23,536 nt of DNA from positions 1 through 23,536 of the IMG/VR virus record IMGVR_UViG_3300031631_000402, one strand, 5' to 3'. The position numbers were made by a program, and so were the translations under genes. Below the pieces are notes generated by a model. That model was not told the DNA's origin, made no database searches, and was given only the letters and a program-made list of their open reading frames with translations. Shown in pieces: positions 4,253 through 23,104 of the stretch; the stretch's first letter is position 1, and every line of letters starts with the position of its first letter. The DNA is from a virus.

Positions 4253-4998
4253 TATTTGTTCTCCTTTGCTTTTACTCTGGCTTCGTGCCATTGTAGTATT
4301 GATTTTTCGCTAGTGAACAAGCATTTTTTACAATCATTACTTAATGCTCCACAATTAGCAGTATCACAATAATCTACTCTTATATTAGCCGCCTCTTTAT
4401 ATTTGCTCACAAACTCCCCAACATCCGGCACGTTGTAACCTTTATACTTTTCCATTTTACTGCTCCTTTGGTTTAAAATATATTTAATCATTTCTTTTGC
4501 TTGGTTAAAATCAAAAAGATTAGTACCTGTTGGAAACGGATAATTTGAATGGGTAGGCTGTTCAAAACTTATTCCTGCATCTGGATTAAAGTCTTTTGGC
4601 AACTCCCATCCTAAAAAACGCTCTGTAATAGTATCTATATATTCCTCACTCTTAACCCCCTCTATCGTTTTCTTAACATCGGGAAAACGTTCCTCGCAGT
4701 CAAACCTCTTGCTTTGGTCAAACTTAGAAACATAAACCATTAATTCTTCCCAGTCATGGTGTGTTTTATCTATATGTTTCACAGCCAAAGTCAGAACTCT
4801 CAATGTGTCTTGTTCGTTTAAAGCCCTGTTTTGTGTCAAATATGCCAACGGTTGCTCACCTTCCAAATTTGTACCCTCCGCACACCTAGGGCAGTATGGT
4901 TCTGCAGAGGGTTCTAATTTAAAATTGTCAGGGTTGCTATAAGAGGGAACCCACCCAGGAGAAAGCTTCATCTTAGTGTTACATTTTGGGCATTTCAT
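4252..4998 (-). CDS. Hypothetical two-part protein with zinc-ribbon N-terminus
   Basis: The protein has 248 residues. The N-terminus has CPKC (C3, C6) and CPRC (C36, C39), a likely zinc ribbon. The middle (about 124-175) reads ERFLGWELPKDFNPD and later YPFPTGTN, a pattern I associate with short uncharacterised phage proteins. The last 67 residues hold a second cysteine cluster (CDTANC, CKKC). An in-frame ATG at 4455 has a perfect AAAGGAG seven bases upstream, so the C-terminal part may also be made alone. This suggests a fusion of two once separate small genes. The start overlaps the exonuclease stop (ATGA), and the stop overlaps the next start (TAATG). Function unknown. Confidence 0.75.
   Translation of the reverse strand: MKCPKCNTKMKLSPGWVPSYSNPDNFKLEPSAEPYCPRCAEGTNLEGEQPLAYLTQNRALNEQDTLRVLTLAVKHIDKTHHDWEELMVYVSKFDQSKRFDCEERFPDVKKTIEGVKSEEYIDTITERFLGWELPKDFNPDAGISFEQPTHSNYPFPTGTNLFDFNQAKEMIKYILNQRSSKMEKYKGYNVPDVGEFVSKYKEAANIRVDYCDTANCGALSNDCKKCLFTSEKSILQWHEARVKAKENK
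4463..4469 (-). promoter_or_regulatory. Internal Shine-Dalgarno inside the zinc-ribbon gene
   Basis: The minus strand reads AAAGGAG followed seven bases later by an in-frame ATG (4455-4453, codon 182 of the gene). The site is as good as the operon's ordinary start sites. It would allow a separate 67-residue C-terminal product with the CDTANC and CKKC cysteines. Confidence 0.45.
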
Positions 4999-5891
4999 AG
5001 CAATCTCCTTCTTTTTCGTGGTTCATTAAATCGCCCTTTAAAAAATCTTTTCCATTTGTTCATCCCTTTTGGAGAGAGGTATGAGTCTATATCATACTCT
5101 TCACAGAACTCAAAGAAAGCATCTGGATTATATTTTGGAAGTTTTAATTCAAAAGGCCTTGTTTTTTTATGGGGCAGAACCACAAGCTCTTTCCATTTAT
5201 CCAGCTCGCCCGAAGTAAATGAGTCTTGTATGGTTTGGTACTTTTTATAATGCTCAGGCATCTCGCCATTTATATAGTCAATAGCACCTTTTTCACCTAC
5301 ACCTGTAAGTCCTGGAACGGAATCCGTCGTACACCCGCCTATAGCCTTTACGAGACCCCACTGAGAAGGCTTGATGTGCTTTTTCGCTATAAAAGACGTG
5401 GGATTATGCAAAAGGTCCCTTTGAGGGTCGTACCAACTAACGAAATCGGTAATGCTTTGGAATATATCCCCATCACTTGTTATCATGACTCCTTCTTCTT
5501 TCCGTTCCGTTAAAACCTGAGAAGCCCACGCTAAATGATCATCAGATTCTAAGCCCTTTTGACCATGCACTTGAATACCCATGCTTGGGAGAATCTTGTC
5601 TGTGAGCAGTTTTACTTGATCTCTCATTATATGGATCTCCTCCCATTCCTCCTCCGTCCTATCTTCCCGCCTTTTATATTTGTATTTTTTAAAGGCTCTA
5701 AGTCTGTAGGAATGTCGGGAGTCTGCGAGGACAACTATTTTATTGGAAAGAAATCTAGGGTTGTTACATATTGAGTATATTTGTTCAAACACTCCATAAA
5801 GAACACCTGTTGGGTATTCTTCAGAAGTGAGGCCTTGTAGGGCGTGAACAGCTCTGTGAGCTAAAAAAGATAAATCTATTAATATCCACAT
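4995..5891 (-). CDS. FEN-family 5'-3' exonuclease (T5/T7/Pol I 5' nuclease type)
   Basis: The protein has 298 residues and the layout of the 5' nuclease family. It has D6 at the N-terminus (LIDLSFLAHRA), D57 in the VVLADSRHSYR segment followed by an arginine/lysine-rich arch region (62-80), the acidic cluster E115-S-D117-D118, D140-G-D142, and a helix-three-turn-helix DNA-binding motif with D190-S-V-P-G-L-T-G-V-G-E-K. These enzymes remove RNA primers and flaps with two metal ions. All key acids are present, so it should be active. It complements the phage polymerase, which has no 5' nuclease domain of its own. It starts 11 bases after the RecA-like gene and ends in an ATGA overlap with the next gene. 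Confidence 0.93.
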   Translation of the reverse strand: MWILIDLSFLAHRAVHALQGLTSEEYPTGVLYGVFEQIYSICNNPRFLSNKIVVLADSRHSYRLRAFKKYKYKRREDRTEEEWEEIHIMRDQVKLLTDKILPSMGIQVHGQKGLESDDHLAWASQVLTERKEEGVMITSDGDIFQSITDFVSWYDPQRDLLHNPTSFIAKKHIKPSQWGLVKAIGGCTTDSVPGLTGVGEKGAIDYINGEMPEHYKKYQTIQDSFTSGELDKWKELVVLPHKKTRPFELKLPKYNPDAFFEFCEEYDIDSYLSPKGMNKWKRFFKGRFNEPRKRRRLL

Positions 5892-8254: not shown

Positions 8255-8400
8255 AATCCTTTCTCCTTTATTTCTTTTTTATGTTCTATGATAGAATTGG
8301 AAATGGCTCCACCTATCATTCTTACGATAAGATATGCACCAAATAGTACATATACAGCCCAACCTAAGAGCTGAAGAATAAACAATAAAATATCTATCAT
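8251..8400 (-). CDS. Small single-pass membrane protein, 49 aa
   Basis: I found this by translating the gap between the UvsY-like and SSB genes. Its ATG overlaps the previous stop as ATGA, with AGGAG upstream, and its own TGA overlaps the SSB ATG in the same way. The first 33 residues are hydrophobic (DILLFILQLLGWAVYVLFG and on), enough for one membrane span. They are followed by a basic/acidic tail (HKKEIKEKG) likely to lie in the cytoplasm. The double overlap argues strongly that it is translated. The function is unknown; it might tether replication proteins to the membrane or act as a small holin-like or host-directed protein, but nothing in the sequence decides this. Confidence 0.7.
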   Translation of the reverse strand: MIDILLFILQLLGWAVYVLFGAYLIVRMIGGAISNSIIEHKKEIKEKGL

Positions 8401-8897
8401 TTTTTGCTCCTTTTTCTTAACTTCGTTCTTTTCATTATTTTTTCTTCTGTTCCTTTCTTAGCTTCTTTCCAAGCTTCTACTAAGTTACGGGGAACGGAAG
8501 GACCGGCAAAGTATTGTTGACCATGGAGAGTAACAAGAATTTCTATCATTCTTTTTCTCTGTTCCATAGCGACCACCGCTTGAGATAAAAGCTCCGCCTC
8601 CTTTTTGCTTTCTACCCATTTTTCATATGCCTCTATATATTCCGCTGAAGCCTTAACAGCAGTAACAATAGAAGTTTCTGTGATTTTCTGGACACCGTAA
8701 GCATCTGGGTCAAGACGAATCTTATTAGACATGTCCGCAGTAATAACGTCAAGTCTTAATTTCATCATATCCCTCGCCTCTGCTCCGACTACAGACTTTT
8801 GAGCCCACTTGAAGAACAACTCACCTTGCATGGCCGCCGCTACATCAAGTTCATTTGGATCTATCTCTAGATCATGTTTAAATTTGTTTTCCTGCAT
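8397..8897 (-). CDS. UvsY-like recombination mediator (phage LHGQQYFAGP family)
   Basis: The protein has 166 residues, is mostly helical, and is rich in E and K. The segment LHGQQYFAGPSVPR (about 123-136) is a hallmark I recognise from phage proteins encoded beside RecA/UvsX and gp32-like SSB genes and often labelled UvsY-like or recombination mediator. UvsY helps load UvsX onto SSB-coated DNA. The gene order here (mediator, SSB, recombinase) fits. A basic tail (KRTKLRKRSKK) ends the protein. It has a GGAGG site upstream of the ATG at 8897. The family label rests on memory of this motif and on context, so function is only moderately sure. Confidence 0.65.
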   Translation of the reverse strand: MQENKFKHDLEIDPNELDVAAAMQGELFFKWAQKSVVGAEARDMMKLRLDVITADMSNKIRLDPDAYGVQKITETSIVTAVKASAEYIEAYEKWVESKKEAELLSQAVVAMEQRKRMIEILVTLHGQQYFAGPSVPRNLVEAWKEAKKGTEEKIMKRTKLRKRSKK

Positions 8898-8922: not shown

Positions 8923-10956
8923 CTATTTGACTCCGACGATAACGTCGTAGCAGGCCAAAGCTAAGCCAGCCTCCTTTGAGTCATAAAAGTTTTCTTGAAA
9001 GATATCTATTATCCCTGCCGCCTTTGCTTCACCTCCCAATAAGCATGTCCTGGCATATCCTAATACAGACCACCTTACTGTTTCAGGTTCTGTTTTTATT
9101 GCTTTAAGGGTTTTGGCAACCTTTGCCCAATTCCCACCTTTGATGAGCATACGGCAAAGTTCAATAACCTCTGGCTCATCTTCCTCAACTACTATGCCAC
9201 CTTCCCGTTGATCCGGTGGGAGGTTTAAAACCTTGTCAAGTATAACCAAAGCCTTCCTGGCACTACCTTCACTGGCGTCAGCAATATCAGCAACCACCTC
9301 TTCGTCCAGCTCTTCTTTTTCCCGCTTGAGTATTCTATTTATTAATTTCGTTAAATAAGGGGAGGTTAAAAGCTCCACTGGTAGATGACAGCATCTTGTC
9401 TTAATTGTTTTAATCATCTTTTGGGGCTCAGTGGTACAGAGGATAAAATATACATGCTTAGGAGTATCCTCTAATATCTTTAAGGCGGCGTTCTGGGCAT
9501 CTTTTGTCATCGCATGACAATTATGGACAAAGACTCCTTCAACACAATAAGATGGGTGATCTTTTATTTGGAGATCATAAAACTCTATAAATCCTTGATC
9601 TCTTTCTTTATCTTCAACAACACCTCTGAAAGATTGGTCATTATTTCCTGGTTCGTAAACCTGATAATTTTCCAACCAAACTCCTTCAACTTCTTGGTTT
9701 TCTTTTGATCTAACAATGTTTGATCTTTCAACAGGTGGCCTTCCCCGTCCACTTCTATTCCCAATAGTAGTTCTGGGTTGGCTATGTCTATCTTGTAATT
9801 CGTTGGATATCCTTTTCTTTTTGACCCTAAAGAGACGGGATATTCTACCTCCCATCCTAAAGAACATGCTAATAACATTTGGGGCTCTGTCAATTTCCCG
9901 TTCCCTCCCCTCTCTCCTTTCCAGACATGAAGCGTTCCATTTATCCTTTTTGTTTCCCGAGCTTTTTTTCTCCAAAGAGGATTGAACATAGGGTTCTTCT
10001 TTTTCATTCGTTCTGAGCATCTCTTCCGTTCTAATATCCCCTCCTCGGATTGTTTCCATTCCTCCATCTTCTTTAAGATCCTCTCTTTCCTTTCCGGAGA
10101 ATACACCTTCTTCCGGTACTCTGGTCTCCGATTTCGGTTCTTTGCCAAACAACTTCTGGAACAATAACTTCTGTGATCGCATGGCTGAGACCAAAATTCC
10201 TTCCCGCACTCTTGGCATATCGTATTGTTCACCCTCTCCCTCTTTCTTTTTGTTCCGTTTACCTTGTTGGAACATTGGACCGAGCAATACTTTTGATGGT
10301 CTGGGATGGGCTTCCTGCATAGTAGACATTTCATCTTTAACCTCCTTTTGTGATACATTGTTTAACAATATATTACTAGAAGGAGACAAAAGCAAGTCCT
10401 TTTCATTTAAATTTTGTGATTCTTTCCACCCACTACCTGTCATGAAGAGATGTTGCTTTGTTGTGAATATAGTTTTTCCATTAGAAAGATCCATACGAAC
10501 TACCCTGTCCAAGGAGACACGATTCTTAAAGACTCTCTCGACTTCAGAAGGACCTTTCAGGTTGGGAAGATGGTCGCCCTCTTTTATTTTGGATATAGGA
10601 ATGTATCCTTTAGACGTGAGAACTTTTGTCATTTGATGGAAGCATTCATCCAACAACCATACCCTTACCTTCCCACCTATAGGAGCCATTCCCATGACTC
10701 TTGTAATCTCACGCACGGTGTCCACCCCTCGGAAGTCCGAGCAGTTTAGCTCTTTAAAATCCATTTCCATGTTACATCTTAGCTCTCTCGCAATAATTCG
10801 GGCAAGTGTAGTCTTTCCACAACCGCTTGGGCCGGAAAGTAAGGTTGTATGAGGCAGAGTATTCCTTTCCATCATATTCTTTAATGTCTGGACCGTGGTT
10901 GTATTTCCCACCACACCTTTTAATTTTTTTGGTCTGTGTTTCTTGTAAAGCTCCAT
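8923..10956 (-). CDS. Clamp loader ATPase (DnaX/RFC small-subunit type) interrupted by an intein
   Basis: The full reading frame is 677 codons; after splicing the product would be about 302 residues. The N-extein (1-104) starts ELYKKHRPKKLKGVVG, typical of clamp loaders, and has Walker A G42-P-S-G-C-G-K48-T49. The Walker B/DExx motif W-L-L-D103-E104 is cut by the intein after E104. The C-extein (480-677) resumes with CHAMTKDAQNAALKILE, then sensor-1-like CTTEP and a conserved ASEGSARKAL sensor-2 helix region. Joined, the site reads LLDECHAMTKDAQNA, a canonical clamp loader sequence. The protein loads the sliding clamp encoded at 14363-15400. The intein has to be spliced out for an active ATPase. 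Confidence 0.92.
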   Translation of the reverse strand: MELYKKHRPKKLKGVVGNTTTVQTLKNMMERNTLPHTTLLSGPSGCGKTTLARIIARELRCNMEMDFKELNCSDFRGVDTVREITRVMGMAPIGGKVRVWLLDECFHQMTKVLTSKGYIPISKIKEGDHLPNLKGPSEVERVFKNRVSLDRVVRMDLSNGKTIFTTKQHLFMTGSGWKESQNLNEKDLLLSPSSNILLNNVSQKEVKDEMSTMQEAHPRPSKVLLGPMFQQGKRNKKKEGEGEQYDMPRVREGILVSAMRSQKLLFQKLFGKEPKSETRVPEEGVFSGKEREDLKEDGGMETIRGGDIRTEEMLRTNEKEEPYVQSSLEKKSSGNKKDKWNASCLERREGREREIDRAPNVISMFFRMGGRISRLFRVKKKRISNELQDRHSQPRTTIGNRSGRGRPPVERSNIVRSKENQEVEGVWLENYQVYEPGNNDQSFRGVVEDKERDQGFIEFYDLQIKDHPSYCVEGVFVHNCHAMTKDAQNAALKILEDTPKHVYFILCTTEPQKMIKTIKTRCCHLPVELLTSPYLTKLINRILKREKEELDEEVVADIADASEGSARKALVILDKVLNLPPDQREGGIVVEEDEPEVIELCRMLIKGGNWAKVAKTLKAIKTEPETVRWSVLGYARTCLLGGEAKAAGIIDIFQENFYDSKEAGLALACYDVIVGVK
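9585..10334 (-). CDS. Zinc-finger EDxHD (Vsr-like) homing endonuclease nested out of frame in the intein
   Basis: The product has 249 residues, in the +1 frame relative to the clamp loader. I chose the ATG at 10334 because a perfect AAAAGGAGG lies six bases before it; an earlier ATG at 10358 precedes that site. The N-terminus has two zinc-finger-like motifs of CxxC...YCSxxC type (C3, C6, C17, C21 and C40, C43, C58, C62). A basic linker follows. The C-terminal domain has E150 (KLTEPQ), D183 (YKIDIANPE), E194-V-D196-G-E-G-H200 and GWKIIRF, the layout of EDxHD homing endonucleases related to Vsr and DUF559. The stop TAG lies just before intein block F. It would cut intein-less clamp loader alleles to spread the element. 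Confidence 0.85.
   Translation of the reverse strand: MKCLLCRKPIPDHQKYCSVQCSNKVNGTKRKRERVNNTICQECGKEFWSQPCDHRSYCSRSCLAKNRNRRPEYRKKVYSPERKERILKKMEEWKQSEEGILERKRCSERMKKKNPMFNPLWRKKARETKRINGTLHVWKGERGGNGKLTEPQMLLACSLGWEVEYPVSLGSKRKGYPTNYKIDIANPELLLGIEVDGEGHLLKDQTLLDQKKTKKLKEFGWKIIRFTNQEIMTNLSEVLLKIKKEIKDL
10341..10349 (-). promoter_or_regulatory. Shine-Dalgarno of the nested homing endonuclease
   Basis: AAAAGGAGG on the minus strand lies six bases before the ATG at 10334, inside the intein coding sequence. It is one of the strongest ribosome sites in the window, and it fixes the endonuclease start. Confidence 0.8.
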
Positions 10957-11319: not shown

Positions 11320-11722
11320 CTGGCTCTCCTTTTTTTGGTTGGTTGTAAACTGGAACAGATAAAAATTTAGCAGGCCACTTTGGATCTCTTGTAATAGAGA
11401 GAACATGTTGTAAGGCCGCCGCCCTATCCCAGTTAAATGATTTATTATCATAGTAAACATCTGCATCAATCTTTTTGCTCGTTGGTCTGCCTTTATACAT
11501 TTGAATTCTGTTTTTATTAATACTATTAAAAACCAACCCTAAATGTGTGATGGCTTGTATGCGTTCTTCCAATTCCTCTCCTTCTCTGCAAGTGTTAAGA
11601 ATAAGATAGTGTCCGGCTTTTTGAGCATCTATGAAAGCCTCTATTAATTCCATGTCAAAGTCTAAAAACTCTGAGGTTTCTTCACTAATTAAAGTTCCAT
11701 CTAAATCTATTGAAAGTATCAT
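11288..11722 (-). CDS. HAD-superfamily phosphatase-like protein
   Basis: The product has 144 residues from the ATG at 11722, which overlaps the polymerase stop (ATGA) and has AAAGGAGG about ten bases upstream. HAD motif I is intact: S-I-D6-L-D8-G-T-L. Motif II is likely the T in LNTCREGEE (about 40-48), a conserved Lys is likely KK near 90, and an acidic motif follows (DVYYDNKSF near 95-103). Short cap-less HAD proteins of this type hydrolyse phosphate from nucleotides, polynucleotide ends or small metabolites. The position between polymerase and clamp loader suggests a nucleotide or DNA-end phosphatase; the substrate cannot be told from sequence. Confidence 0.75.
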   Translation of the reverse strand: MILSIDLDGTLISEETSEFLDFDMELIEAFIDAQKAGHYLILNTCREGEELEERIQAITHLGLVFNSINKNRIQMYKGRPTSKKIDADVYYDNKSFNWDRAAALQHVLSITRDPKWPAKFLSVPVYNQPKKGEPDESRNTWNSP

Positions 11723-13149
11723 GATATGGTGACCTCCTTTTTGTCTGCCCAACACCCATCTAAAGGTGTCATTTCAGCTTCTATTTCAAGTGGTGTTATA
11801 ATCCAAGGCCAAACCTTCCTTAGTCTTTTTGTCATATTCCTATTTGAAAGGTGTAGGTATTCTTCTACTTCACCAGCAGGTACATCTCCAACAATACTAT
11901 CATGAATCTGTCCTATAATTAAAGAATCCATACTCCTCTTTTCGATGGTATTACCATTCCATATAAGGCCTTGAAGCAAGCCATGGAAAGCAGAACCCTG
12001 GACAGGATAGTTTATCATTTCATTCTTTTTCATAACACCCTGGCAGATAAATCCAGTCTTGGTTAGAAAATAGCCGTCCCTGTTCACCTGTTTTACCCAA
12101 TCCTTTTTCCATTGGTTGTATATAGGAAATCTATCATTCCAGAAAGAGTATTCCACGTCTTTGATATGCTTTTCAAAAGTCCCTGAGCGAGGAGACATAT
12201 CAGGATCGCAGTCACCCAATTCGTGTATTCCTTTCTTGGCTAAATGATCTTTTAAAGGAGTACCATCTCTTAAGCAAAGATTAAACTCACCTATGGCTTC
12301 CCAAAGAGCCTTAGCACAATCAATATACCAATCACCATAAAATTCTGGGAATACAAATTTATTTTTCCCGCAGTATCTTATGGTGCTGATTCTTTTCTTG
12401 TCCTTATCATCTACTGGATTCAACATATCACCCGGAGGCAATATATAACATTCTTGGCTACAATCCCGGTGCATGTCTTTTGAAGAGTCTGTGAGATACT
12501 CAAGCATGTTAGGGTCTTTATGGTAGCAAGCCGCGAATGAAACTTCTATTCCACGATAGTCCAATTCTATTATATGCCTTCCAGGTCTGGCTATGAAAGC
12601 CGACCTAACCATTTTACCCAAGATGGGGTCACGAATAGGTAGGTTCTGGAAATTAGGATTGGATGAAGAAGACCTATATGTGATAGCTGTATGCAGATTA
12701 AAGAAAGGGTGGAGAAGCCCACCTACTATTTCTCTTCGTATTCCTTTAAGATAAGTATTGACAACATGCTTCAGTTTCTTGACTTCAACATATTTTTTAA
12801 CGAAAGGAATATCTAGAGAGGCTAAAGTGGTTTCGTTCACTTTGTATTTCCCTGACTTTGTATATGCTGGGGCTTTATAATCCAAACCCTCAAAAAGAAC
12901 TTTTCCTAACTGATCACCGGAACCAAAGTTCATTGTCTTCCCGTACATTCTTCTCCATACTTTCGCTACCTGATCATGTTTAAGGTCTTGTTCTAAACAA
13001 CCTATCTTTAAAGTTTGTCTCTCAATTTCATCGTTGAGGTATTCTACATCCATTCTAATCCCGTTTGATTCTACTTGAGCTAGAGCAAGAGAACCCTGAT
13101 GGAGTAGTTTATATGCTTTCTGTTTATAAGGTAAAATGAGTGATCCCAT
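11719..13149 (-). CDS. Family A DNA polymerase, polymerase domain only
   Basis: The protein has 476 residues, covering thumb, palm and fingers of a Pol I-type enzyme and no exonuclease. Motif A is E-L-D197-Y-R-G-I-E. Motif B runs from R258 through K262 to F-Y271-G272. INYPVQGSA holds Q384, and motif C is Q-I-H416-D417-S418, with the second palm aspartate kept but Ser where HDE is usual. YRSSSSNPNFQNLP (158-171) is the classical primer-template contact region. The proofreading domain is encoded in the preceding gene, whose stop overlaps this start as TAATG. The two proteins probably work as a complex. Compared with E. coli Pol I (928 aa) this is a split enzyme. Confidence 0.93.
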   Translation of the reverse strand: MGSLILPYKQKAYKLLHQGSLALAQVESNGIRMDVEYLNDEIERQTLKIGCLEQDLKHDQVAKVWRRMYGKTMNFGSGDQLGKVLFEGLDYKAPAYTKSGKYKVNETTLASLDIPFVKKYVEVKKLKHVVNTYLKGIRREIVGGLLHPFFNLHTAITYRSSSSNPNFQNLPIRDPILGKMVRSAFIARPGRHIIELDYRGIEVSFAACYHKDPNMLEYLTDSSKDMHRDCSQECYILPPGDMLNPVDDKDKKRISTIRYCGKNKFVFPEFYGDWYIDCAKALWEAIGEFNLCLRDGTPLKDHLAKKGIHELGDCDPDMSPRSGTFEKHIKDVEYSFWNDRFPIYNQWKKDWVKQVNRDGYFLTKTGFICQGVMKKNEMINYPVQGSAFHGLLQGLIWNGNTIEKRSMDSLIIGQIHDSIVGDVPAGEVEEYLHLSNRNMTKRLRKVWPWIITPLEIEAEMTPLDGCWADKKEVTIS

Positions 13150-14363
13150 TAGAATTGTTTTCCTTTGTTTTTTATAATCTCTCTTTGTTTAAAACAGACG
13201 AGGTATTCAAGTATGCTATCCATTCCATTATACAATAACAGATCATCTCTATCCAGTTCATATATCCTATTCAGCTCATTAGATCCGGAAGCTTTAAGGT
13301 AAGGGCTTATGTGGCTGTCATAGTCGGATATACCCAATAATACAAATGCTTGGAATTTTACAGATGTAATTTTAGATCTATTATCTATCATATGAGCGGC
13401 AAGCATTGTATCCCACCACCATCCCAGACATTTCGTTTTAAGTTTGGCAATACTCCACCTCTCTTCAAACTTCATATTGGAAGCTATTTTCTTCAGCCTT
13501 TTGTTTTTTAGAATTTGTATGAGAGGTTCCTTTAGTTTCTTGTTCATCATACAAGCAAAAGTCTCTTTACCGTCTAAGCAAAAAGAAACGCTGACAATGC
13601 GTTGTTTCTTCCTATCCGGTTTAAGTCCGGTCGTTTCGTAATCCCATGCGAGATAACCGCTTCTCGTAGCAAGGTCAAGCATTCTCTTCTTCGCTTCCTT
13701 AGTAGACCTTATTATTTCTACCGTTTCCTCCAGGTCTTCTATTTTAAGGTACCCTGGTTTTACATCTTCCAATGCCAAGGCCGCTTGGATATGTCTTGCG
13801 AAAGATGCTGTGAGGATAGGGTTTTCTTTATGGAGAACAAACTCAGGACTATATGTAGGGCAAACCCAAGCGTCATATTCTCTTAAGGGTATAGTGTACC
13901 CCACCCATCGTGAAATCCCGTCAACACTTTTCTTCCATACATCAAAAAGAATAGATTCCAAAGCAGAGATTCCTAAAGGTATAATGACCTTGGGTTTGAT
14001 TTTTTTAATAGTGCGGAGCAGGTTGGGACGACAACAAGAAGTCATATAAGGTTCCACTCTATCCTCTTCCGGACGACAGGTTATGGAATTAGTAGAGGAG
14101 CAATCCTCCAAGTCAATACCAACCTCCTCCATAATCGCCCGCATCATTTCACCTGATGGTCCGACGAACAGTTCACCTAGCTTGTCTTCTTCTATCCCAG
14201 GAGCCTCACCTATGAATAAAATCTTTCTATCCCCGCTCCCATATACTTCCATTTTGGGTGATAAGCATTTTCGGGATAGTCCGCATTTACCACATTGGGA
14301 AATATTCTTTGGAGTCCCTTTGCTGTTCTTATCATATGCTTGTGGATTAAAGAAGCCTGGCAT
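13149..14363 (-). CDS. Family-4 UDG-like domain fused to a 3'-5' exonuclease (split Pol I proofreading domain)
   Basis: The protein has 404 residues in two domains. Residues 20-195 resemble family-4 uracil-DNA glycosylases: CGKC (C24, C27), F-I-G-E-A-P-G (50-56), a FVGPSG loop, C96-R-P and C110/C111 in iron-sulfur ligand positions, and PLGISALESIL. The usual C-terminal HPS-type motif reads TYSPEFV, so the histidine is missing and base excision is doubtful. Residues 235-400 are a DnaQ-like exonuclease: W-D241-Y-E243-T-T-G-L, N296-M-K-F-E-E, WWWD318 and L-Y378-N-G-M-D382, giving all acidic residues of Exo I-III. It overlaps the polymerase gene by one base, and probably supplies its proofreading. 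The UDG part may detect uracil or tether the complex. Confidence 0.88.
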   Translation of the reverse strand: MPGFFNPQAYDKNSKGTPKNISQCGKCGLSRKCLSPKMEVYGSGDRKILFIGEAPGIEEDKLGELFVGPSGEMMRAIMEEVGIDLEDCSSTNSITCRPEEDRVEPYMTSCCRPNLLRTIKKIKPKVIIPLGISALESILFDVWKKSVDGISRWVGYTIPLREYDAWVCPTYSPEFVLHKENPILTASFARHIQAALALEDVKPGYLKIEDLEETVEIIRSTKEAKKRMLDLATRSGYLAWDYETTGLKPDRKKQRIVSVSFCLDGKETFACMMNKKLKEPLIQILKNKRLKKIASNMKFEERWSIAKLKTKCLGWWWDTMLAAHMIDNRSKITSVKFQAFVLLGISDYDSHISPYLKASGSNELNRIYELDRDDLLLYNGMDSILEYLVCFKQREIIKNKGKQF

Positions 14364-15400
14364 TATTGATCACCGCCTGCTTCAAGAGCCGCAGTGAAAT
14401 GAATGTTGTCAACTTCTACTTTTATTTGGGTATCACTGATGATGGCCTCTCTTGTTCTGCTAACCAAGTCCTTAAGAAATAAAGGATGAATAGAAAAAGT
14501 TAATGGAGGTCCATCATATACAGCTTTTCTTTCTTCCTTAAACCAGCCTTCTTCTTTTCGTGAAGACACTCGGATACTATTGTCATCTAAAGATATAGTA
14601 ACCTGTGAATCCCACCCACCTATGGAAAGTCCTGGAGTGTCCATAATTTCTGCACGAGAAAGAACCTCTGAAAGATTTTTAGGGAAGGTAACCTTATCCC
14701 CATCAACAGACAAAAGATCATCTATCATATCTTTCTTATAGTATTTATCCTCTGAGCAAAGAAGTGACATAACCATTCCGTCCTCTGTTTTCAAATGGAA
14801 CCAACCATGACCATCAATCGCCGCACCTTTAACATCAAAGCGACAAGCAAGGATAAGACTGGTGGCTTGCACCAACACAGATTTTTGTATCTTTGTTTCC
14901 AACTCGCCTCTGAACACTCGATAGGAATCCGTAGCTTCAACTCTATCCTCAGCTATATGGACATGAGTGGTCTTTGGTGCTGTTTTATCTTTACCACATA
15001 TCTGAGCCGCCTGGAGTAATAGTTTTATGAGTTCTTTTGGAACCTTTTTAAACTTTTTGGGTTTGGGCACTTCTTCATAAGGGAGAATAATCTCAGCCAT
15101 CATTTTAACACCTGCTGATCTTCTCTTACCTTTGATTCGAAGCTCACCACCGCGTTCTTCAATCTTTAATATATCGTCTGGGAACCGTTGCAGAACTCTC
15201 AGGAAATCTCCAGCCATTATAGAGCCCGTAATTTCATCACCAAAAGGAGATTTCTGTCTTGTTAGAAATTCCCCGTTAAAGGTTATTAATCTACCATGCT
15301 CAAATACGAAGGTATTGGACTGTTCCAATATAGCATTACTTGTCACGCCGGCTAGGGCGTTTTCTAACCTTTTCAGAACTTCTTGTCTTTTCACTTCCAT
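14363..15400 (-). CDS. DNA polymerase sliding clamp (DnaN-like)
   Basis: The protein has 345 residues, near the length of bacterial beta clamps (about 366). The mid-domain segment HIAEDRVEATDSYRVFRGEL matches the beta clamp signature in which (A)TDSYRL sits on the strand after domain 2 begins. The repeated strand-rich layout also fits a three-domain clamp. AAGGAG lies before the ATG at 15400, and the stop overlaps the UDG-exonuclease start (TAATG). The clamp would be loaded by the clamp loader at 8923-10956 and hold the split polymerase on DNA. The sequence is divergent, so the assignment depends on this signature and on context. Confidence 0.8.
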   Translation of the reverse strand: MEVKRQEVLKRLENALAGVTSNAILEQSNTFVFEHGRLITFNGEFLTRQKSPFGDEITGSIMAGDFLRVLQRFPDDILKIEERGGELRIKGKRRSAGVKMMAEIILPYEEVPKPKKFKKVPKELIKLLLQAAQICGKDKTAPKTTHVHIAEDRVEATDSYRVFRGELETKIQKSVLVQATSLILACRFDVKGAAIDGHGWFHLKTEDGMVMSLLCSEDKYYKKDMIDDLLSVDGDKVTFPKNLSEVLSRAEIMDTPGLSIGGWDSQVTISLDDNSIRVSSRKEEGWFKEERKAVYDGPPLTFSIHPLFLKDLVSRTREAIISDTQIKVEVDNIHFTAALEAGGDQ

Positions 15401-15545
15401 TTTTCTTTCTCCTTAATTTTATAATGTTTTGAAAATCTTTGGCTTGTTCATCTTTTTCATTCTTAGCATAATGGTAAGAGATAAGAACATTTTCTATTCT
15501 TTCACCTTTAGGAAGAAATATTTTTCCTGCTAGAAATATCTTCAT
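15336..15545 (-). CDS. Small protein resembling the missing N-terminus of phage DpdA, 69 aa
   Basis: The start at 15545 overlaps the DpdA-like stop (ATGA) and has AGGAGG eight bases upstream, so it is surely translated. The first 30 residues (MKIFLAG ... NVLISYHYAKN) look to me like the first strands of phage DpdA/TGT-like proteins, in which a similar MxxFLAG...ILxSYYY segment normally precedes the LDSGAF motif. The DpdA-like gene just upstream begins almost at that motif and lacks this segment. The rest is a basic tail (RRKKNGSEKTRSSEKVRKR) that overlaps the clamp gene by 65 bases. An alternative is a truncated nucleoside deoxyribosyltransferase-like start (MKIxLAG), but no later motif supports it. 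Confidence 0.6.
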   Translation of the reverse strand: MKIFLAGKIFLPKGERIENVLISYHYAKNEKDEQAKDFQNIIKLRRKKNGSEKTRSSEKVRKRPSRRDK

Positions 15546-16495
15546 AGTAATTTCCTCCTGCCACCGTGTTTGAAAGGTCTTGGCCAATCCAGACGCTTCT
15601 CCACTGATTCATAATAATGTTTGTTGACATGACATCTCCATTCAATAGAATTGGAAACACCAGGCACTACTATTTCTTCAATAACAAGATGGTCTTCGTT
15701 CCTTTCATATATATTTTCGTGGACTGCATCATGCTTGTATTTTAGATCTTCTTTTCTGTATTTAGATTTACCAAACTCACTCCCTGCTATTGCAAGATAG
15801 TTGTCTAATACTCTTCTCATATGCTTGGAGAGGAATGAGTAATGATTTCCTTTCTCTTTAGCAGACTTTCCTATTTTAGAAGAGAAGAAAACACATTGAG
15901 GAGAGTTTAAGAAATCCCATCCCCCGTCTTGTTTTCTATGTGGAATAAGAACAGTTCCATATATGGCAAATTTAAGCCATGAAGCTGAGTCGCATGAATA
16001 CCAAGGGTATCTAACCATTAAAGGAATGGACGTGACAGCAAAGCCATGAAACTTACAAAGGGGCATACCATCCTTATCACAAATATGTTTCATGCAAGAG
16101 TCCAACCATAAACGGCGGAGACCTGAAGAGCAATCATTGGCAGGGGATATACCTAAATAAGGCACACCATATTCCATATACCTTTCCAACCATTTGAAAT
16201 CATCGTTTTGATGAAAAACAGGAACCACCTTTTCTTTAGGCAGTCCTGCTTTAATCATTCGCTTGTAATTTTTCCAACCCTCTTTACAAGCTTCATCAAT
16301 ATTATTTTTGGTGAGGGATAAACGATCTCCAGGACTTCCAGGTATGACATCAAGTGCTACGATTATATCCAATTCATCTAAATACTCAAAGCAGAAAGAT
16401 ATATACTTTTTCAGATTGACTTTGCCTCCATTGTTCCATACGGAGAAAGCCCCGGAGTCAATCATTAAAGTATTTGGATTAAAATCTATAGACAT
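15542..16495 (-). CDS. dpdA: Phage DpdA-like 7-deazaguanine DNA transglycosylase (TGT paralogue)
   Basis: The protein has 317 residues. The TIM-barrel TGT-related signature is clear: M-I-D13-S-G-A-F-S-V-W, A-L-D49-V-I-P-G, V-F-H-Q, LGISPAND, K-F-H150-G-F-A-V-T-S and R-Y-P-W-Y-S-C-D169-S-A-S-W-L. The last is a hallmark of phage DpdA and carries the probable nucleophile Asp. D13 in DSGAF corresponds to the base-binding Asp of TGT. DpdA swaps guanine in DNA for a 7-deazaguanine base. The chain starts only ten residues before DSGAF; the expected first strand seems to be in the next small gene. The start overlaps QueF by ten bases, with AAGGA upstream. Confidence 0.88.
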   Translation of the reverse strand: MSIDFNPNTLMIDSGAFSVWNNGGKVNLKKYISFCFEYLDELDIIVALDVIPGSPGDRLSLTKNNIDEACKEGWKNYKRMIKAGLPKEKVVPVFHQNDDFKWLERYMEYGVPYLGISPANDCSSGLRRLWLDSCMKHICDKDGMPLCKFHGFAVTSIPLMVRYPWYSCDSASWLKFAIYGTVLIPHRKQDGGWDFLNSPQCVFFSSKIGKSAKEKGNHYSFLSKHMRRVLDNYLAIAGSEFGKSKYRKEDLKYKHDAVHENIYERNEDHLVIEEIVVPGVSNSIEWRCHVNKHYYESVEKRLDWPRPFKHGGRRKLL

Positions 16496-16959
16496 TTGTG
16501 TATATCCTTGGTAATTTCATACCCGTATTCTTCACTATACTCTGCTGTGACGGTGATGGATAAAGCACCACGAGGGGCAAAGGTGGCTTTCACTACCATT
16601 TGAAGTGGTTCACATTTATGAACAAAATCACGAAGAATTTTATTAGTGATGGATTCCATAAAAGCCCCAAAGTTTCGATAAGCGAAAAAGTATAATTTGA
16701 TACTCTTACTTTCCAGACAAAGTTTATTAGGAACATATACGACTTGAATATGAGCAAAATCTGGTTGTCCTGTTTTTGGGCAAAGAGAAGTAAACTCAGG
16801 GAAATTCAAATCCACATGGTATTGTGAATCCTTATTCCTGTTTGGAAATGTTTCCAGCATAAGCATATTTGGATCTTTATACTTATAATCTGTTTCGTTC
16901 GTCCCCAATGATTTTAATTCAGAGACATCATCAATGTTAGCTTTACCTTTTTCAGTCAT
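16486..16959 (-). CDS. queF: NADPH-dependent 7-cyano-7-deazaguanine reductase (unimodular QueF)
   Basis: The protein has 157 residues, the size of type I QueF such as the B. subtilis enzyme. F-T-S-L-C60-P-K-T-G-Q-P-D67-F has the catalytic Cys and Asp. The NADPH-binding family motif E83-S-K-S-I-K-L-Y is intact, which separates it from QueF-like amidinotransferases that lack it. The glutamate that binds substrate is kept (E102), but the neighbouring histidine of B. subtilis QueF (FHE) is methionine here (F-M101-E). It should reduce preQ0 to preQ1. AAAGGAG lies before the ATG, one base after the FolE stop. It points to preQ1 as the base given to DpdA. Confidence 0.9.
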   Translation of the reverse strand: MTEKGKANIDDVSELKSLGTNETDYKYKDPNMLMLETFPNRNKDSQYHVDLNFPEFTSLCPKTGQPDFAHIQVVYVPNKLCLESKSIKLYFFAYRNFGAFMESITNKILRDFVHKCEPLQMVVKATFAPRGALSITVTAEYSEEYGYEITKDIHKCL

Positions 16960-16960
16960 C

Positions 16961-17932
16961 TTATGCTCCTTTGATTAAACTTAAAAATTCCTGGCGGGTT
17001 GCTGGGTCCGTTTTAAAGTCCCCTAGCAGGCTTGATGTAACCATTACAGAGGATTGCTTTTCTACACCTCGGGCTACCATACAAAAGTGCTTAGCCTCTA
17101 TCATACAAGCCGCCCCTAAAGGTTCCAAATGCTCCATAAGAGCTTCGGATATTTGGCTTGTTAGTCTTTCTTGGATTTGTAGCCGTCTAGCAAAGATTTC
17201 AAGGATCCGTGCCAGCTTTGATATTCCTATCACTTTCCCATTAGGGATATATGCGATATGGGCGACACCAAAGAATGGTTGCATGTGGTGTTCGCAGGTG
17301 GAATAGAATTCAATGTTCTTCAGGATAACCATTTCATCGCTAGAGTCATCTTTAAACACTTTTAGAACATCCTCTACTTTTTTATGGTACCCTCCATATA
17401 ATCTTCCCCAAGATTTAACTACACGGTCTGGGGTTTCGAGGAGACCTTCACGCTTTGGATCATCTCCTATGAATTCTAAAATACGTCTGACGTTTTCTGT
17501 TGGAGCAGTTTCGTCTTGGAGACCTTCCCAAGGGAACACAATCCATTCACCTTTCTTAATATCTGTCAGACATGAAACTAGATCAAAGAATGGTTTGTTG
17601 TGTTTGTCTTTGTATTGTTTCTTGGTTGCTCCTGAATCCACAATGTCATCAAAGATAATATCTGCGTTTTCAGGACTTTTCATGACAAGGACATCTTTTA
17701 GGAAGAGAGCTTTGACCATAGAAGCTACATATACACCGCCCCTAGGTACACCATAAATTTTAAGAGGGCGAAAACAATCACCATCTATGTTATCCATATC
17801 CCAATCGTCTTCCAGATCCACTTCCTCCCTCGCTTGGCTCACCATTAGTTTTATGGCTGTTATAGTTTCGTCCCAAGTAAGATGCCTCATCTTACGTCCA
17901 GGATCTTTTGTGTTTGTAGTGATAGTTTCCAT
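16961..17932 (-). CDS. folE: Phosphoribosyltransferase-GTP cyclohydrolase I fusion (FolE)
   Basis: The protein has 323 residues. Residues 18-130 form a type I phosphoribosyltransferase: Y-G-V-P-R-G-G-V (60-67) and the PRPP loop [12 protein letters not shown] (92-103), closest to the xanthine/guanine type. WIVFPWE (130-136) links to GTP cyclohydrolase I (140-323) with zinc ligands C213, H216 (in CEHH) and C284 (HFCMVARG), and [15 protein letters not shown]. FolE opens GTP to dihydroneopterin triphosphate, the first step to preQ0. The fused transferase might salvage guanine into the GTP pool or handle a deazapurine. AAAGGAG before the ATG at 17932 sets the start, with 46 bases of overlap with queE; a Met at 17890 makes ATGA with the queE stop but has a poor ribosome site. 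Confidence 0.92.
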
Positions 17933-18525
17933 GTTGGATTCTCCTTTATAAAATTAATAGCTGGAAGGACATCTTCCGAGCAGGGTTGAATATAATAATG
18001 ACGAAACCTGTTTCCAAGTTTGACCGGTAGTTCTTTGAGCATTTCAATATCAGCTTCCGGATCCAAAACAACTTTTAATTCATCTCCACACCACTTTGGA
18101 TCGTCAAAATACAGAGAACAATCTTCAATGGATAATTTGGGAGATACCGTCGTCCAGAAATGACAAGAAGCCCTGACGTCTTTGATGATGGAATCTGCAG
18201 AAGCTCTTCCATTAGTTTCCATGGTTATTATATTGTGAGGAAAGTAATGGTTTAGAACTCTTACAAGTGATGGATAATTTTGTAAAGTAGGTTCGCCTCC
18301 TGTTAAGACAAAAATAACATCTTGAGCATTCGCTACCTCTTTCAACAGAGAGACAATTTCTTTCTCTATGTGAAGCACGTCCATTTTTCTTTTTACAGAA
18401 AAATCTGTATCACACCAAGAACAATTAAGATTACATCCAGCAAGCCTGATGAAAATCGCAGGCCATCCTGTGAAGTATCCTTCACCTTGGATAGAATAAA
18501 ATATTTCGTTTATATCATATAACAT
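17887..18525 (-). CDS. queE: 7-carboxy-7-deazaguanine synthase QueE (radical SAM)
   Basis: The protein has 212 residues. C31-N-L-N-C35-S-W-C38-D-T is the CX3CX2C cluster that binds the iron-sulfur centre used with S-adenosylmethionine. SIQGEG (11-16) near the N-terminus and LTGGEPTLQ (74-82) are both typical of QueE. The enzyme converts 6-carboxytetrahydropterin to 7-carboxy-7-deazaguanine. Length is normal. It overlaps queD by 16 bases and the folE fusion by 46 bases, so the genes are expressed together. Confidence 0.95.
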
Positions 18526-18923
18526 GCGACATTTCCTTCCGATTCTTGAACGGTTACTTTGTAGACTTTTGGGCGATCTTCGTAAGAGGTTTTGTTTGGA
18601 ATAAGCTCCATTGAATCATTACCCCAATCATCCCATTGTTGGTTTATTTTAGTCTGGACTGAATTACAAATCCACTTAGCTATGTTCTCAGCTGTGGGGT
18701 TGACACTAACCACCTCATTAATATTAGCGTGGTCAAGTCTGTTGACAACCTCTTTAATGTGTTTGAAGTCTATGAGCATACCATTTATATCCAAACAAGA
18801 ACCCTCAACGGAAACGTGGATAATCCAGTTATGCCCGTGAAGATTTTCACAAGGAGATTTATAAGATAAACCTAAACGATGGGCTCCGGCTACTTCACAT
18901 CTTTTTGTAAGTTGGTATTTCAT
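18510..18923 (-). CDS. queD: 6-carboxytetrahydropterin synthase QueD
   Basis: The protein has 137 residues. Zinc ligands are H15 (AGAHRL), H29 and H31 (LHGHNW). The catalytic Cys is C25 in SPCENLHGH. L-D-H65-A-N-I-N and N-P-T-A-E79-N complete the family pattern of the PTPS/QueD fold. QueD turns dihydroneopterin triphosphate from FolE into 6-carboxytetrahydropterin. The start overlaps the queC stop as ATGA with GGAGG upstream. Confidence 0.95.
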   Translation of the reverse strand: MKYQLTKRCEVAGAHRLGLSYKSPCENLHGHNWIIHVSVEGSCLDINGMLIDFKHIKEVVNRLDHANINEVVSVNPTAENIAKWICNSVQTKINQQWDDWGNDSMELIPNKTSYEDRPKVYKVTVQESEGNVACYMI

Positions 18924-19597
18924 TGGTTACCTCCGTCATACATTATTGGATCTGTTGTATTTAGATTTCTAAAAGCCTCCAGGCGTTCTTGGCAGGCCCC
19001 GCACTTACCACAAGCTAGTGGTTGATCTTTATAGCACGTCCTTGTGAACTGATAAGGAACTTTGTGATTCAGCCCCCATTTAAGGATATCTGTTTTATCC
19101 ATATTAAGGAAAGGAGCTTCTAAGACCACTCCTCCGTCTGTGGCGTCTTGTATAGCCTTAGCCATGGAGCGAAAGAATTCAGGACGGCAGTCAGGATATA
19201 TAGCATGGTCTCCTGAGTGTATTCCTAACGCCACAAATGGAGCTTTCCGGGATTCAGCTATGCCGGCGAGTATTGAAGCAAATATCATATTTCGTCCTGG
19301 GACGACAGTTGATTTCATGTTTTCTGATTCGTAGTGTCCTTCTGGAATATCTCCTCCGGATTTTAAAAGGCTGGAGGATAGGGCAGAGCCCACCTCTTCA
19401 AGATTAATTTGGATAAATTCTACATCATTTTCTTTGCAAAGTTTTTCAGCACATGCCAGTTCATACTTATTATGTTTAGAACCATATGAGAACCCAACGG
19501 CTAGAACATTGCCATATACCGTTTGGGCAAAAGAAAGAAGCGTTCCACTATCCATCCCTCCTGAAAGTGAGATCACGCATTGTATAGGTTTTTTCAT
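18920..19597 (-). CDS. queC: 7-cyano-7-deazaguanine (preQ0) synthase QueC
   Basis: The protein has 225 residues. The ATP-pyrophosphatase P-loop is S12-G-G-M-D-S17. VVPGRNMIF (98-106) is the second family motif. The zinc site is C188, C196, C199 and C202 (ACGKCGAC). QueC converts the carboxylate of CDG to the nitrile of preQ0 with ATP and ammonia. No glutaminase-like Gat domain is fused, unlike the Gat-QueC of phages such as 9g that make archaeosine-like bases. It is the first gene of the deazaguanine operon, has AGAGG before the ATG, and is preceded by a hairpin and a putative promoter. Confidence 0.96.
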   Translation of the reverse strand: MKKPIQCVISLSGGMDSGTLLSFAQTVYGNVLAVGFSYGSKHNKYELACAEKLCKENDVEFIQINLEEVGSALSSSLLKSGGDIPEGHYESENMKSTVVPGRNMIFASILAGIAESRKAPFVALGIHSGDHAIYPDCRPEFFRSMAKAIQDATDGGVVLEAPFLNMDKTDILKWGLNHKVPYQFTRTCYKDQPLACGKCGACQERLEAFRNLNTTDPIMYDGGNQ

Positions 19598-20446: not shown

Positions 20447-23104
20447 TTATAAACAAGAGCAACAGAACGCCCTTCCTAATGAAAGACATTGGCCTACATT
20501 AAGACATAAGTCTCCTATAAATTCTTCTTCCCTTAAAGCTATCCAGTTTAATCTCATCACCGCCGCCTTCTTTTCTTCCCCTATTTGGTTTAATCCTATC
20601 ATACCTGTAACATGAGCGATCTTCCTTTTATCCTCAGTAAAGTTACCCATGCCTAATGTTTCTAAATCATAAGAACCTGCGTCAGCTTGAGTAGGAGCTA
20701 TAACCAAACAATGTTTTTCCTGGGATAGTTTTCTCATAGCTTTCCATGTGGCGTTCACTGTTCCTCGTTCTGAAAGGTTGGATCCGCCTGGTTCCACATC
20801 AAGGATGTCAGGATAATCAATTATAATAATATCAGGAACAAATCCTTCAAACACTTCCCATTGATTTAATATAGTTTCTATGCCTGCTATGTTAATGGAG
20901 GAGTTGGCGTGAATAGAGCTTTTGACATAAGTTACATCTTTCTTAATGCCATTCGCTCGCATGAACTTATCCATTCCTTTTTTCCTAGATTTATTTGTCG
21001 CCACTTTATCGCAGAACACCTCTTTGGTCTTGTGTCTTATCTTCTTCCCTTTCCTTCCCATTTTCAAAGGAACTTTAATAGGACCGAGATTTGATTTAAA
21101 CATAGGCCGTCTAGATAACCTTACACCCATTCTTCTTAGTATCTGGGATTGCGACATATCACCCACCTCAAATAAGGCTACCCGTCTTTGGTTCATTAAA
21201 GCCCTAAACAGGAACTCCACGCACCACCAAGTATTATGAACAAGACAATTACCAGCCACATAGTTATGGGTAGTTTGGATTGTTAAATCATATGTATGTT
21301 TTTCTCCTACGTCTTCAATTTTTTCTATTGTATCCCATAGAATGTCAGCATTCATATATTTTTCGTATGCTCGAGTGCCTTTTGTGTTTTGAAAAGATTT
21401 TCGCATCACAGGCTGTTTTTTATTTAATTGATATTTTACACTTGTGGCTTTGTTTTGTCCAAATATCTCATAAAACCCTTTTCCATCTTTTCTTATTTCT
21501 TCCTTCACTTCTTTGTAAAACTTCAACCCAACTTCATATGGGAGTTTGTCAAGGAAAGACCTTCCAGGAATAATATCTACTTCTTTCTGTGTCTTTGGAG
21601 TGTCAAAATTAATTTCTTTTATGAATTTTGCAATGTTTTCATCATCACCTATTATTAACTCCCAAGCTGTGAACTTCCCATTTATAACTTTTCTAATAGT
21701 GTACACAAGCCCAAACCGAGTGAGTAATGATGCTATTTGGTATATTAAAGGTCTGTTAGCCAAGCAAATTCCAATCTGTCTGTTTTTATTTTTATTACAG
21801 CACCATCCGTCACAAGTATACAGAACCCTTAAAAACTCAGCTACCTTCCCTTTTGGTAACTTTAATATTTCTTCTGGGATTAATTTAGTTTTTGCTGAAT
21901 GTCCGGCTAATCCATATCCTCTTATGTAGTCGTTTGCTCCGGACAATCCATAAGAAATATCATTTTCCTTCCATCCTATGCCTAAGTCGATACAACACCT
22001 CTTAAAATCAGCAATAATATCTTCATTGATATTTGTAAAAGAAGCATTCAAACCATTTTTTCTTCTTGTTCCGTCTTTCTTTAATTTATTTATGTGCCCT
22101 TGAGTACAGCACCCTTCTGCTATCATGTACGCTAGGAATCGAACCAACGTGCTTTTCATATAATAGCTTCCAAAATTATCAAGCTTCTTAGGAACGGCTA
22201 TATAATCCTTTTCTTTCAAGTCCCCTATCTCCTTCCATCCGGAAGGTGTTAGATACTTATGATTAAATGTAGTTATAATTTCCCTTCCACCCCTTGTAGT
22301 GACTTTACAACAGGACTTAATCCCATTATCCCAATGTTGTAGTATAGGTGTTTCTTTAAATCTTGATATTTCTTCATCATAAGTTAATACTTTGACATCA
22401 AGCTTTTTATTTACAATCTGAGAAATAGGCAAACTCCGTCCATCTGATAATTGTATTAATGTGGATCCTTCAATACACTTGCCTCGTTTTTCCGGACCTA
22501 GTATGCCAAGGAGACAATCGCGACACAAAGAATGACCAAAGAATCTATTTGCGTCCTCGTCATGCCAGTCTATTAGGGGTTTCTGTGATTCCGAATAGGC
22601 AAGCTCCCAAGCTTCTTCATTATTAAATGGATCTATGCCACTGCCCGTTTCCTTTGTTACAGCTGAATACCGTGCTATCGCACTTGAAGCGGCTATCATA
22701 TCCCCTTCCGTAAGGCTATAGTCTAACTCGTCTTTAAGTGCTTCTATTTGCTTGATGTTAAGGTATTCAGTTGTTATATCTAAATATCGTTGAACGTTTA
22801 ATGTTTTATGTTGTTCATATTGCTCTGAGAGATTTTCTAAAACATCACTTACAGCTTCCATTTGTTCAGAAGAAGCTTTTCCTTTCCTAACCCACCCATG
22901 ATAGATAGATTCTATTTGACTTCCAGGGGCTTCACCATACTTGGTATAATACTTCAAACACCATGTGGCAATTTGTCTGAGTGGAGGACTTTTCAGTAGG
23001 TCTGTATTTATCAAAGAAGCAACCTGAAGCAGATACTCTTTGGAAACCACCATAGCTGTAATTATCTTTTGTTCACTTATCGTGTCAATCTTAGTTCGTT
23101 CCAT
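20447..23104 (-). CDS. DnaB-like replicative DNA helicase interrupted by an intein
   Basis: The full frame is 885 codons; the spliced product would be about 470 residues. The N-extein (1-209) has a helical DnaB-type N-terminal domain and ends in the P-loop G203-P-E-K-R-G-K209. The C-extein (625-885) restarts with T-W-W, restoring GPEKRGKT. Walker B is P-D-I-I-I-I-D-Y-P-D (C-extein 133-142). APTQAD is the sensor-like Gln motif, and HVTGMIGLNQ is near the end, as in RecA-fold hexameric helicases. It would unwind DNA at the phage fork. The start overlaps the preceding gene by 14 bases. The protein ends in a cysteine-rich FCCSCL tail. Confidence 0.87.
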   Translation of the reverse strand: MERTKIDTISEQKIITAMVVSKEYLLQVASLINTDLLKSPPLRQIATWCLKYYTKYGEAPGSQIESIYHGWVRKGKASSEQMEAVSDVLENLSEQYEQHKTLNVQRYLDITTEYLNIKQIEALKDELDYSLTEGDMIAASSAIARYSAVTKETGSGIDPFNNEEAWELAYSESQKPLIDWHDEDANRFFGHSLCRDCLLGILGPEKRGKCIEGSTLIQLSDGRSLPISQIVNKKLDVKVLTYDEEISRFKETPILQHWDNGIKSCCKVTTRGGREIITTFNHKYLTPSGWKEIGDLKEKDYIAVPKKLDNFGSYYMKSTLVRFLAYMIAEGCCTQGHINKLKKDGTRRKNGLNASFTNINEDIIADFKRCCIDLGIGWKENDISYGLSGANDYIRGYGLAGHSAKTKLIPEEILKLPKGKVAEFLRVLYTCDGWCCNKNKNRQIGICLANRPLIYQIASLLTRFGLVYTIRKVINGKFTAWELIIGDDENIAKFIKEINFDTPKTQKEVDIIPGRSFLDKLPYEVGLKFYKEVKEEIRKDGKGFYEIFGQNKATSVKYQLNKKQPVMRKSFQNTKGTRAYEKYMNADILWDTIEKIEDVGEKHTYDLTIQTTHNYVAGNCLVHNTWWCVEFLFRALMNQRRVALFEVGDMSQSQILRRMGVRLSRRPMFKSNLGPIKVPLKMGRKGKKIRHKTKEVFCDKVATNKSRKKGMDKFMRANGIKKDVTYVKSSIHANSSINIAGIETILNQWEVFEGFVPDIIIIDYPDILDVEPGGSNLSERGTVNATWKAMRKLSQEKHCLVIAPTQADAGSYDLETLGMGNFTEDKRKIAHVTGMIGLNQIGEEKKAAVMRLNWIALREEEFIGDLCLNVGQCLSLGRAFCCSCL
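21233..22477 (-). other. LAGLIDADG intein in the helicase P-loop (415 residues)
   Basis: The intein runs from C210 to N624 of the precursor, with +1 Thr. Block A is CIEGSTLIQLSDG; block B is TTFNHKYLT. The two endonuclease motifs are FLAYMIAEGCC and FLRVLYTCDGWC (LAGLIDADG blocks C and E, with acidic residues E and D kept). Blocks F and G are HTYDLTIQTTHNYVAG and CLVHN. All splicing residues are present, so both splicing and homing look intact. Insertion is between the Lys and Thr of the P-loop, so the helicase is inactive until splicing. Confidence 0.94.

Follow-up and report, generated by a model that had tools for sequence, protein, structure and literature searches.

A family A DNA polymerase encoded by two genes, one for a UDG-like domain joined to the 3'-5' exonuclease and one for the polymerase domain, recurs in 91 of 114 distinct viral relatives of the locus analysed here, far beyond what chance would give. 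Enzymes of family A ordinarily combine polymerase and proofreading domain in one chain. On the basis of sequence comparison and structural models, we consider it fairly likely that in this phage (a 23.5 kb IMG/VR virus fragment, hereafter the window) the two proteins form a family A replicase of two subunits that works in association with a clamp, and that its UDG-like domain serves mainly as a structural or DNA-binding platform. A large phage clade with separate polymerase and proofreader genes as its sole recognised DNA polymerase, beside a β-type clamp, would be a natural two-subunit counterpart to Pol III α-ε in an unrelated family. As intact and decayed natural variants occur side by side, the role of the long-known, unexplained UDG domain of phage polymerases becomes testable, and so do the effect of separate proofreading on fidelity or on the tolerance of modified DNA and the manner in which PolA is tethered to the clamp.

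The locus and its relatives

The genes of the window follow the order clamp, UDG-exonuclease, polymerase, HAD-like gene, clamp loader (with an intein), small conserved gene, SSB-like, UvsX/RecA-like and 5'-3' exonuclease, and the clamp stop overlaps the UDG-exonuclease start (Table 1). An earlier note on this DNA had divided the Pol I functions over two genes joined by a TAATG overlap. The split is upheld by the reading frames, by Pfam and by the relatives, but the number of genes is not, since a third piece, the 5'-3' exonuclease, is encoded separately.

Table 1. Positions of the replication features in the window.
Feature	Position	Strand	Evidence or remark
UDG-like + 3'-5' exonuclease subunit	13149..14363	-	404 aa; Pfam UDG 2.6e-22, DNA_pol_A_exo1 1.3e-7; AlphaFold2 pLDDT 93.9
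Family A polymerase subunit	11719..13149	-	476 aa; Pfam DNA_pol_A 2.9e-40; residue conservation
TAATG junction	13147..13151	-	stop TAA 13151..13149 shares one base with start ATG 13149..13147
Disordered N-terminal tail, residues 1-16, GFF at 3-5; candidate clamp-binding peptide	14316..14363	-	pLDDT <50
Family-4 UDG-like domain, residues 24-196; C24, C27, C96, C111, E53, N92	13776..14294	-	
UDG-domain motif B, residues 172-178, SPEFVLH	13830..13850	-	Ser172 for His, His178 for Arg
DEDD-type 3'-5' exonuclease domain, residues 233-400; D241, E243, E300, Y378, D382	13164..13667	-	
In-frame A AAA AAC heptamer before the UDG-exonuclease stop	13167..13173	-	-1 frame open into polymerase
β-type sliding clamp	14363..15400	-	phrog_947 1.8e-23; PDB β clamps 6e-5
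Clamp loader ATPase with intein	8923..10956	-	phrog_5846 1.3e-59; Intein_splicing 2e-12
Separate 5'-3' exonuclease	4995..5891	-	PF02739 7.7e-19

A profile search of each domain, as the earlier note had proposed, matched all of them in Pfam: UDG (PF03167) at residues 41-180 and the exonuclease (PF01612) at residues 221-331 of the first protein, and DNA_pol_A (PF00476) in the second. The four acidic residues of a DEDD proofreader are present as D241, E243, E300 and D382, the first two being found in 118/118 relatives and the last in 123/123 rows, while the ExoII position, Asp in classical Pol I, is Glu in nearly all relatives. In the polymerase subunit the palm and fingers motifs are intact (D197, E202, R258, K262, Y271, H416, D417), with motifs A, B and C and the catalytic Asp residues of family A in place and D197, R258, K262, Y271 and D417 conserved; as a family trait, motif B is longer by one inserted residue (K-N-x-[FW]-V-F-[PA]).

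Relatives were collected by scanning IMG/VR with a profile built from four proteins, which yielded 148 loci; a single-protein scan with the UDG-exonuclease reading frame alone found none. Both halves were present in 132 of the 148, and removal of duplicates left 114 distinct loci, 91 split and 23 fused. Three small related contigs, which are fragments (L032, L034, L035), carry the UDG-exonuclease gene with no PolA match in the available sequence. Each of 18 long contigs (59-92 kb, possibly partial) contained one PolA and one UDG-domain gene, controls behaved as expected, and neither PolB nor PolC gave a match in these 18; the split enzyme is thus probably the replicative polymerase, as judged from gene content.

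Several other features of the window were recorded. The intein of the clamp loader is inserted at the Walker B DEC/H site and contains no recognised homing endonuclease domain, and a DnaB-like helicase (20447..23104, minus strand) carries an intein with a LAGLIDADG endonuclease domain. A 7-deazaguanine cluster (15542..19597, minus strand), comprising a queuine tRNA-ribosyltransferase-like (DpdA-like) gene, QueF-like, GTP cyclohydrolase I, and QueE-, QueD- and QueC-like genes, suggests that the phage DNA beside the split polymerase may be modified; such a cluster is common to only a minority of the relatives' loci. A patatin-like phospholipase gene (1619..2458, minus strand) adjoins the replication and repair operon. 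Assignment of a host was abandoned, as the matches in a scan of genome contigs were MAG contigs from many phyla (Thermoplasmata, Firmicutes, Halanaerobiales and others).

The UDG-like domain and the clamp

The N-terminal family-4 UDG-like domain described in the earlier note is confirmed by Pfam and by the AlphaFold2 model of the UDG-exonuclease protein (pTM 0.90), whose best structural matches by Foldseek are the family-4 UDGs 1l9g and 1ui1 (TM 0.82-0.83 by target length, 0.82 for 1l9g), with the phiLo family A polymerase 9qhs, UdgX and the Klenow exonuclease as further matches; a lack of the UDG fold, which the earlier note had named as counter-evidence, is not borne out. The four plausible iron-sulfur ligands also stand, for the cysteines are nearly invariant among aligned relatives (C24 and C27 each in 111/112, C96 in 113/113, C111 in 113/114) and predict a 4Fe-4S cluster, as in family 4. 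They are missing, among the tested rows, only in Vibrio phage SSP002 (L010), besides one contig truncated before the domain. The UDG-like domain of SSP002 is moreover undetected by Pfam, and the polymerase model of a Vibrio phage related to it aligns from end to end with the fused architecture.

Of the family-4 motifs, motif A (GE(A/G)PG with its Glu) is present as GEAPG with E53, and motif B (HPS..(L/V)R) reads SPEFVLH in the window. In UdgX, uracil is acted on by the motif A Glu, Asn91 and His178, and DNA is bound by Arg184 (PMC10359453); the counterparts in the window are E53, N92, S172 and H178. A covalent uracil trap of the UdgX type was rejected, as the R-loop KRRIH is absent and motif A is GEAPG, not GEQPG.

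The earlier note had suggested that this domain could be a uracil sensor tied to proofreading that stalls or guides synthesis at uracil. A sensor or glycosylase of this kind would detect or remove uracil in template or product and stall or redirect synthesis. Such a role accords with the family-4 fold and motifs, with the near invariance of the four ligands, with the retention of Glu53, Asn92 and His172 together in 90/116 rows, and with the dCMP deaminase or thymidylate synthase genes that adjoin some fused relatives. The window copy itself speaks against it: the motif B His is Ser172 and the Arg is His178, and the uracil-contacting His is likewise replaced in its three nearest relatives, by Ala (L016), Asp (L017, which also lacks the Glu and the Asn) and Pro (L097), so that none of the four members of the subclade retains it. 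Across the family His172 is kept in 96/115 rows and lost in 19/115 by at least 11 separate changes, and SSP002 has lost essentially the whole site although the overall architecture is retained in a polymerase closely homologous to its own. We regard the uracil role as unlikely for the window.

As the cysteines have been kept while His172 was lost repeatedly, the fold and probably the cluster are more strongly constrained than uracil catalysis; mean pairwise identity is 0.428 for the UDG domain versus 0.429 for the exonuclease. Such constraint speaks for a platform role in this phage, and it is compatible with uracil recognition in most relatives. The Fe-S-stabilised UDG-like domain of the window would then be a platform, structural or DNA-binding, by which the exonuclease or the template is positioned, rather than an efficient glycosylase, whereas those relatives with intact Glu, Asn and His, which are the majority, may still recognise or excise uracil.

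The suggestion of the earlier note that the protein might have a link to processivity gained support, in that the clamp gene directly precedes the UDG-exonuclease gene and a conserved motif at the N-terminus goes together with the presence of a clamp. Among the 91 split loci, 73 have a homologue of the window clamp, in most cases just upstream of the UDG-exonuclease gene, and 81 have a clamp loader homologue near by. Residues 1-16 of the UDG-exonuclease protein are predicted by AlphaFold2 to be disordered, but this stretch has GFF right after the start. FF is found in 80/103 usable N-terminal tails, mostly two to four residues after a Met (mean of 11.5 and maximum of 21 in shuffled tails), and a hydrophobic-aromatic pair [FL][FWY] in 98/103 (shuffled mean 33). 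Among 12 isolates, a β-type clamp gene was found in two, ZHS and SSP002, and an FF start in the same two only (phiXF1 is annotated short); these are sister sequences on the tree, and the association in isolates counts as one lineage. We propose the N-terminal GFF, which lacks the Gln of the classical β-clamp peptide, as a candidate clamp-binding peptide, by which the UDG-exonuclease subunit would bind the β-type sliding clamp of the phage. The C-terminus of the polymerase subunit was dismissed as the site of a clamp motif, no conservation being seen there. In a small conserved protein (8397..8897, minus strand), with a homologue in 66/91 split loci, the sequence QGELFFKW resembles the clamp-binding QxxLFF, and the relatives displayed in the alignment conserve its Gln.

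A further elaboration, which we hold to be quite unlikely, would make the protein a detachable proofreading subunit, in which an Fe-S domain recognising uracil or lesions is linked to the clamp by the N-terminal GFF, so that proofreading and base surveillance can be recruited to or released from a family A replicase independently of synthesis, the pocket having been retuned from uracil in the subclade of the window. It is very unlikely that the Fe-S cluster switches polymerase or exonuclease activity according to its redox state, a redox function having been among the roles raised by the earlier note: the retention of the cysteines through repeated losses of the catalytic His would fit, but a purely structural need for the cluster gives the same pattern, and the ligands are absent from SPO1 gp31 and SSP002 despite the same architecture.

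One enzyme from two genes

The reading frames of the 91 split pairs overlap in 34 cases, lie within 300 nt of each other in 25, 300-1000 nt apart in 24 and more than 1 kb apart in eight, with a maximum of 4.4 kb, and in several pairs other genes intervene. The position of the cut is constant. The UDG-exonuclease proteins of split loci all end 14-37 residues (median 19) past the ExoIII Asp, and the cut, mapped on the model of a fused relative, falls after the final helix of the exonuclease and before the opening helix of the polymerase. In a tree built from the polymerase portion (a quick tree with SH-aLRT support only) fused rows are basal and split rows clustered, with six state changes versus 28 in shuffles; at least four changes between split and fused are forced by starred branches, and the fused L043 and L134 sit inside starred split clades. 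The tree reads as a deep split followed by at least two re-fusions (L043, L134). An ancestral fused UDG-exonuclease-polymerase was cut, on one occasion or a small number of occasions, in the loop joining the exonuclease and polymerase helices.

The model of the re-fused L043 (pTM 0.90) matches Klenow with a TM of 0.81 by target and aligns over its full length to a Vibrio phage polymerase model (TM 0.77). By analogy with this model, the UDG-exonuclease and polymerase proteins of the window would assemble non-covalently into a Klenow-like particle. The two genes might instead act independently, the polymerase working without proofreading and the UDG-exonuclease being a separate repair nuclease or glycosylase, as could be surmised from the eight loci with distant halves and from the few contigs with the first gene alone. 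The constant split site, the at least two re-fusions within split lineages, the co-occurrence of the halves in 18/18 long contigs and the invariance of the exonuclease catalytic residues all argue against independence, to which we assign only a slight chance.

Assembly error and frameshift are both excluded as causes of the split by the arrangement of the partner genes, which in some relatives overlap, in others have further genes between them, and can be separated by as much as 4.4 kb. That the window encodes a fused polymerase, expressed by a -1 shift at its heptamer or interrupted by a one-base contig error, is extremely improbable, for, although the heptamer is in frame ahead of the stop and the -1 frame continues open into the polymerase, 57/91 split pairs do not overlap and no relative with overlapping genes has a heptamer near the junction; with no slippery site conserved at the relatives' junctions, we judge that of the window to be coincidental.

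Genes for HNH_3 endonucleases lie exactly between the halves in L018, L044 and L106 (and, by a weak match, in L105), a hint that homing elements may have helped to open the polymerase gene. As a general rule, splitting by mobile elements is a lead only; MazG and other genes occupy this position in other relatives, and searches with truncated 60-residue queries from the intervening reading frames gave no matches. In Vibrio phage BH21-A1 (L011) the polymerase is annotated in several pieces and is whole in sibling phages, which may reflect a sequencing error or a decayed gene.

Comparison with known polymerases

The order UDG-exonuclease-polymerase is not in itself new and occurs in fused form in SPO1 gp31 (PF03167 3.5e-22), LysYB1, PMBT14, StAshley, vir526, Mel-JY34 and others. 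The fused polymerases of PHROG 17 (SPO1 gp31, Lysinibacillus phage LysYB1 and phiLo, PDB 9qhs) have the same three domains in the same order as the window, both proteins of which match phrog_17 (5e-31 and 3e-52). They differ in being single polypeptides, whereas the window has two reading frames; SPO1 moreover lacks the Cys ligands, all four of which are present in the window, and the SPO1 and LysYB1 genomes gave no match to a β-type clamp, for which the window has a gene. Among the phage records examined, none was of an isolate with this particular split, and a search of the open-licence literature turned up neither a UDG domain described in PolA nor an account of this split, which is weak evidence of absence. 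The fused three-domain order was already known; the stable, widespread two-gene form seems to be undescribed.

By gene order (clamp, UDG-like-exonuclease-polymerase, clamp loader) the nearest isolates are Edwardsiella phage ZHS and Vibrio phage SSP002 (Mardecavirus), which also share with the window family an inserted VFP(Q/E) fingers motif and the N-terminal FF. Their polymerase is fused and their UDG site decayed, ZHS keeping the Cys without the Glu or His and SSP002 keeping neither. A family A polymerase on two reading frames is also found in the OM43 phages MEP401 and MEP402, where the break falls within the polymerase domain itself and the presence of an intron was suggested; the part of that report consulted mentions no UDG domain (PMC10580990).

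With the family-4 UDGs (T. maritima TM0511 and T. thermophilus UDGA) the window shares the fold (TM 0.81-0.83 by target), the four Cys, motif A (GEAPG..ED) and Asn92, but motif B is HPSxxxR in those enzymes and SPEFVLH here; UdgX has the R-loop KRRIH and the motif A Gln, both absent from the window. Akin to the Klenow fragment, the window has the exonuclease and polymerase fold and the catalytic residues, and it differs from Klenow in having two chains, Glu for Asp at ExoII (family-wide), the one-residue insertion in motif B, an extra fingers insert and the UDG-like domain. In Pol III, α and ε are a polymerase and a DEDD-type proofreader made as separate proteins and working with a β-type clamp. 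The assembly we propose for the phage enzyme would follow a logic comparable to that of α and ε and would work alike, although Pol III belongs to a different polymerase family and is not homologous as a polymerase.
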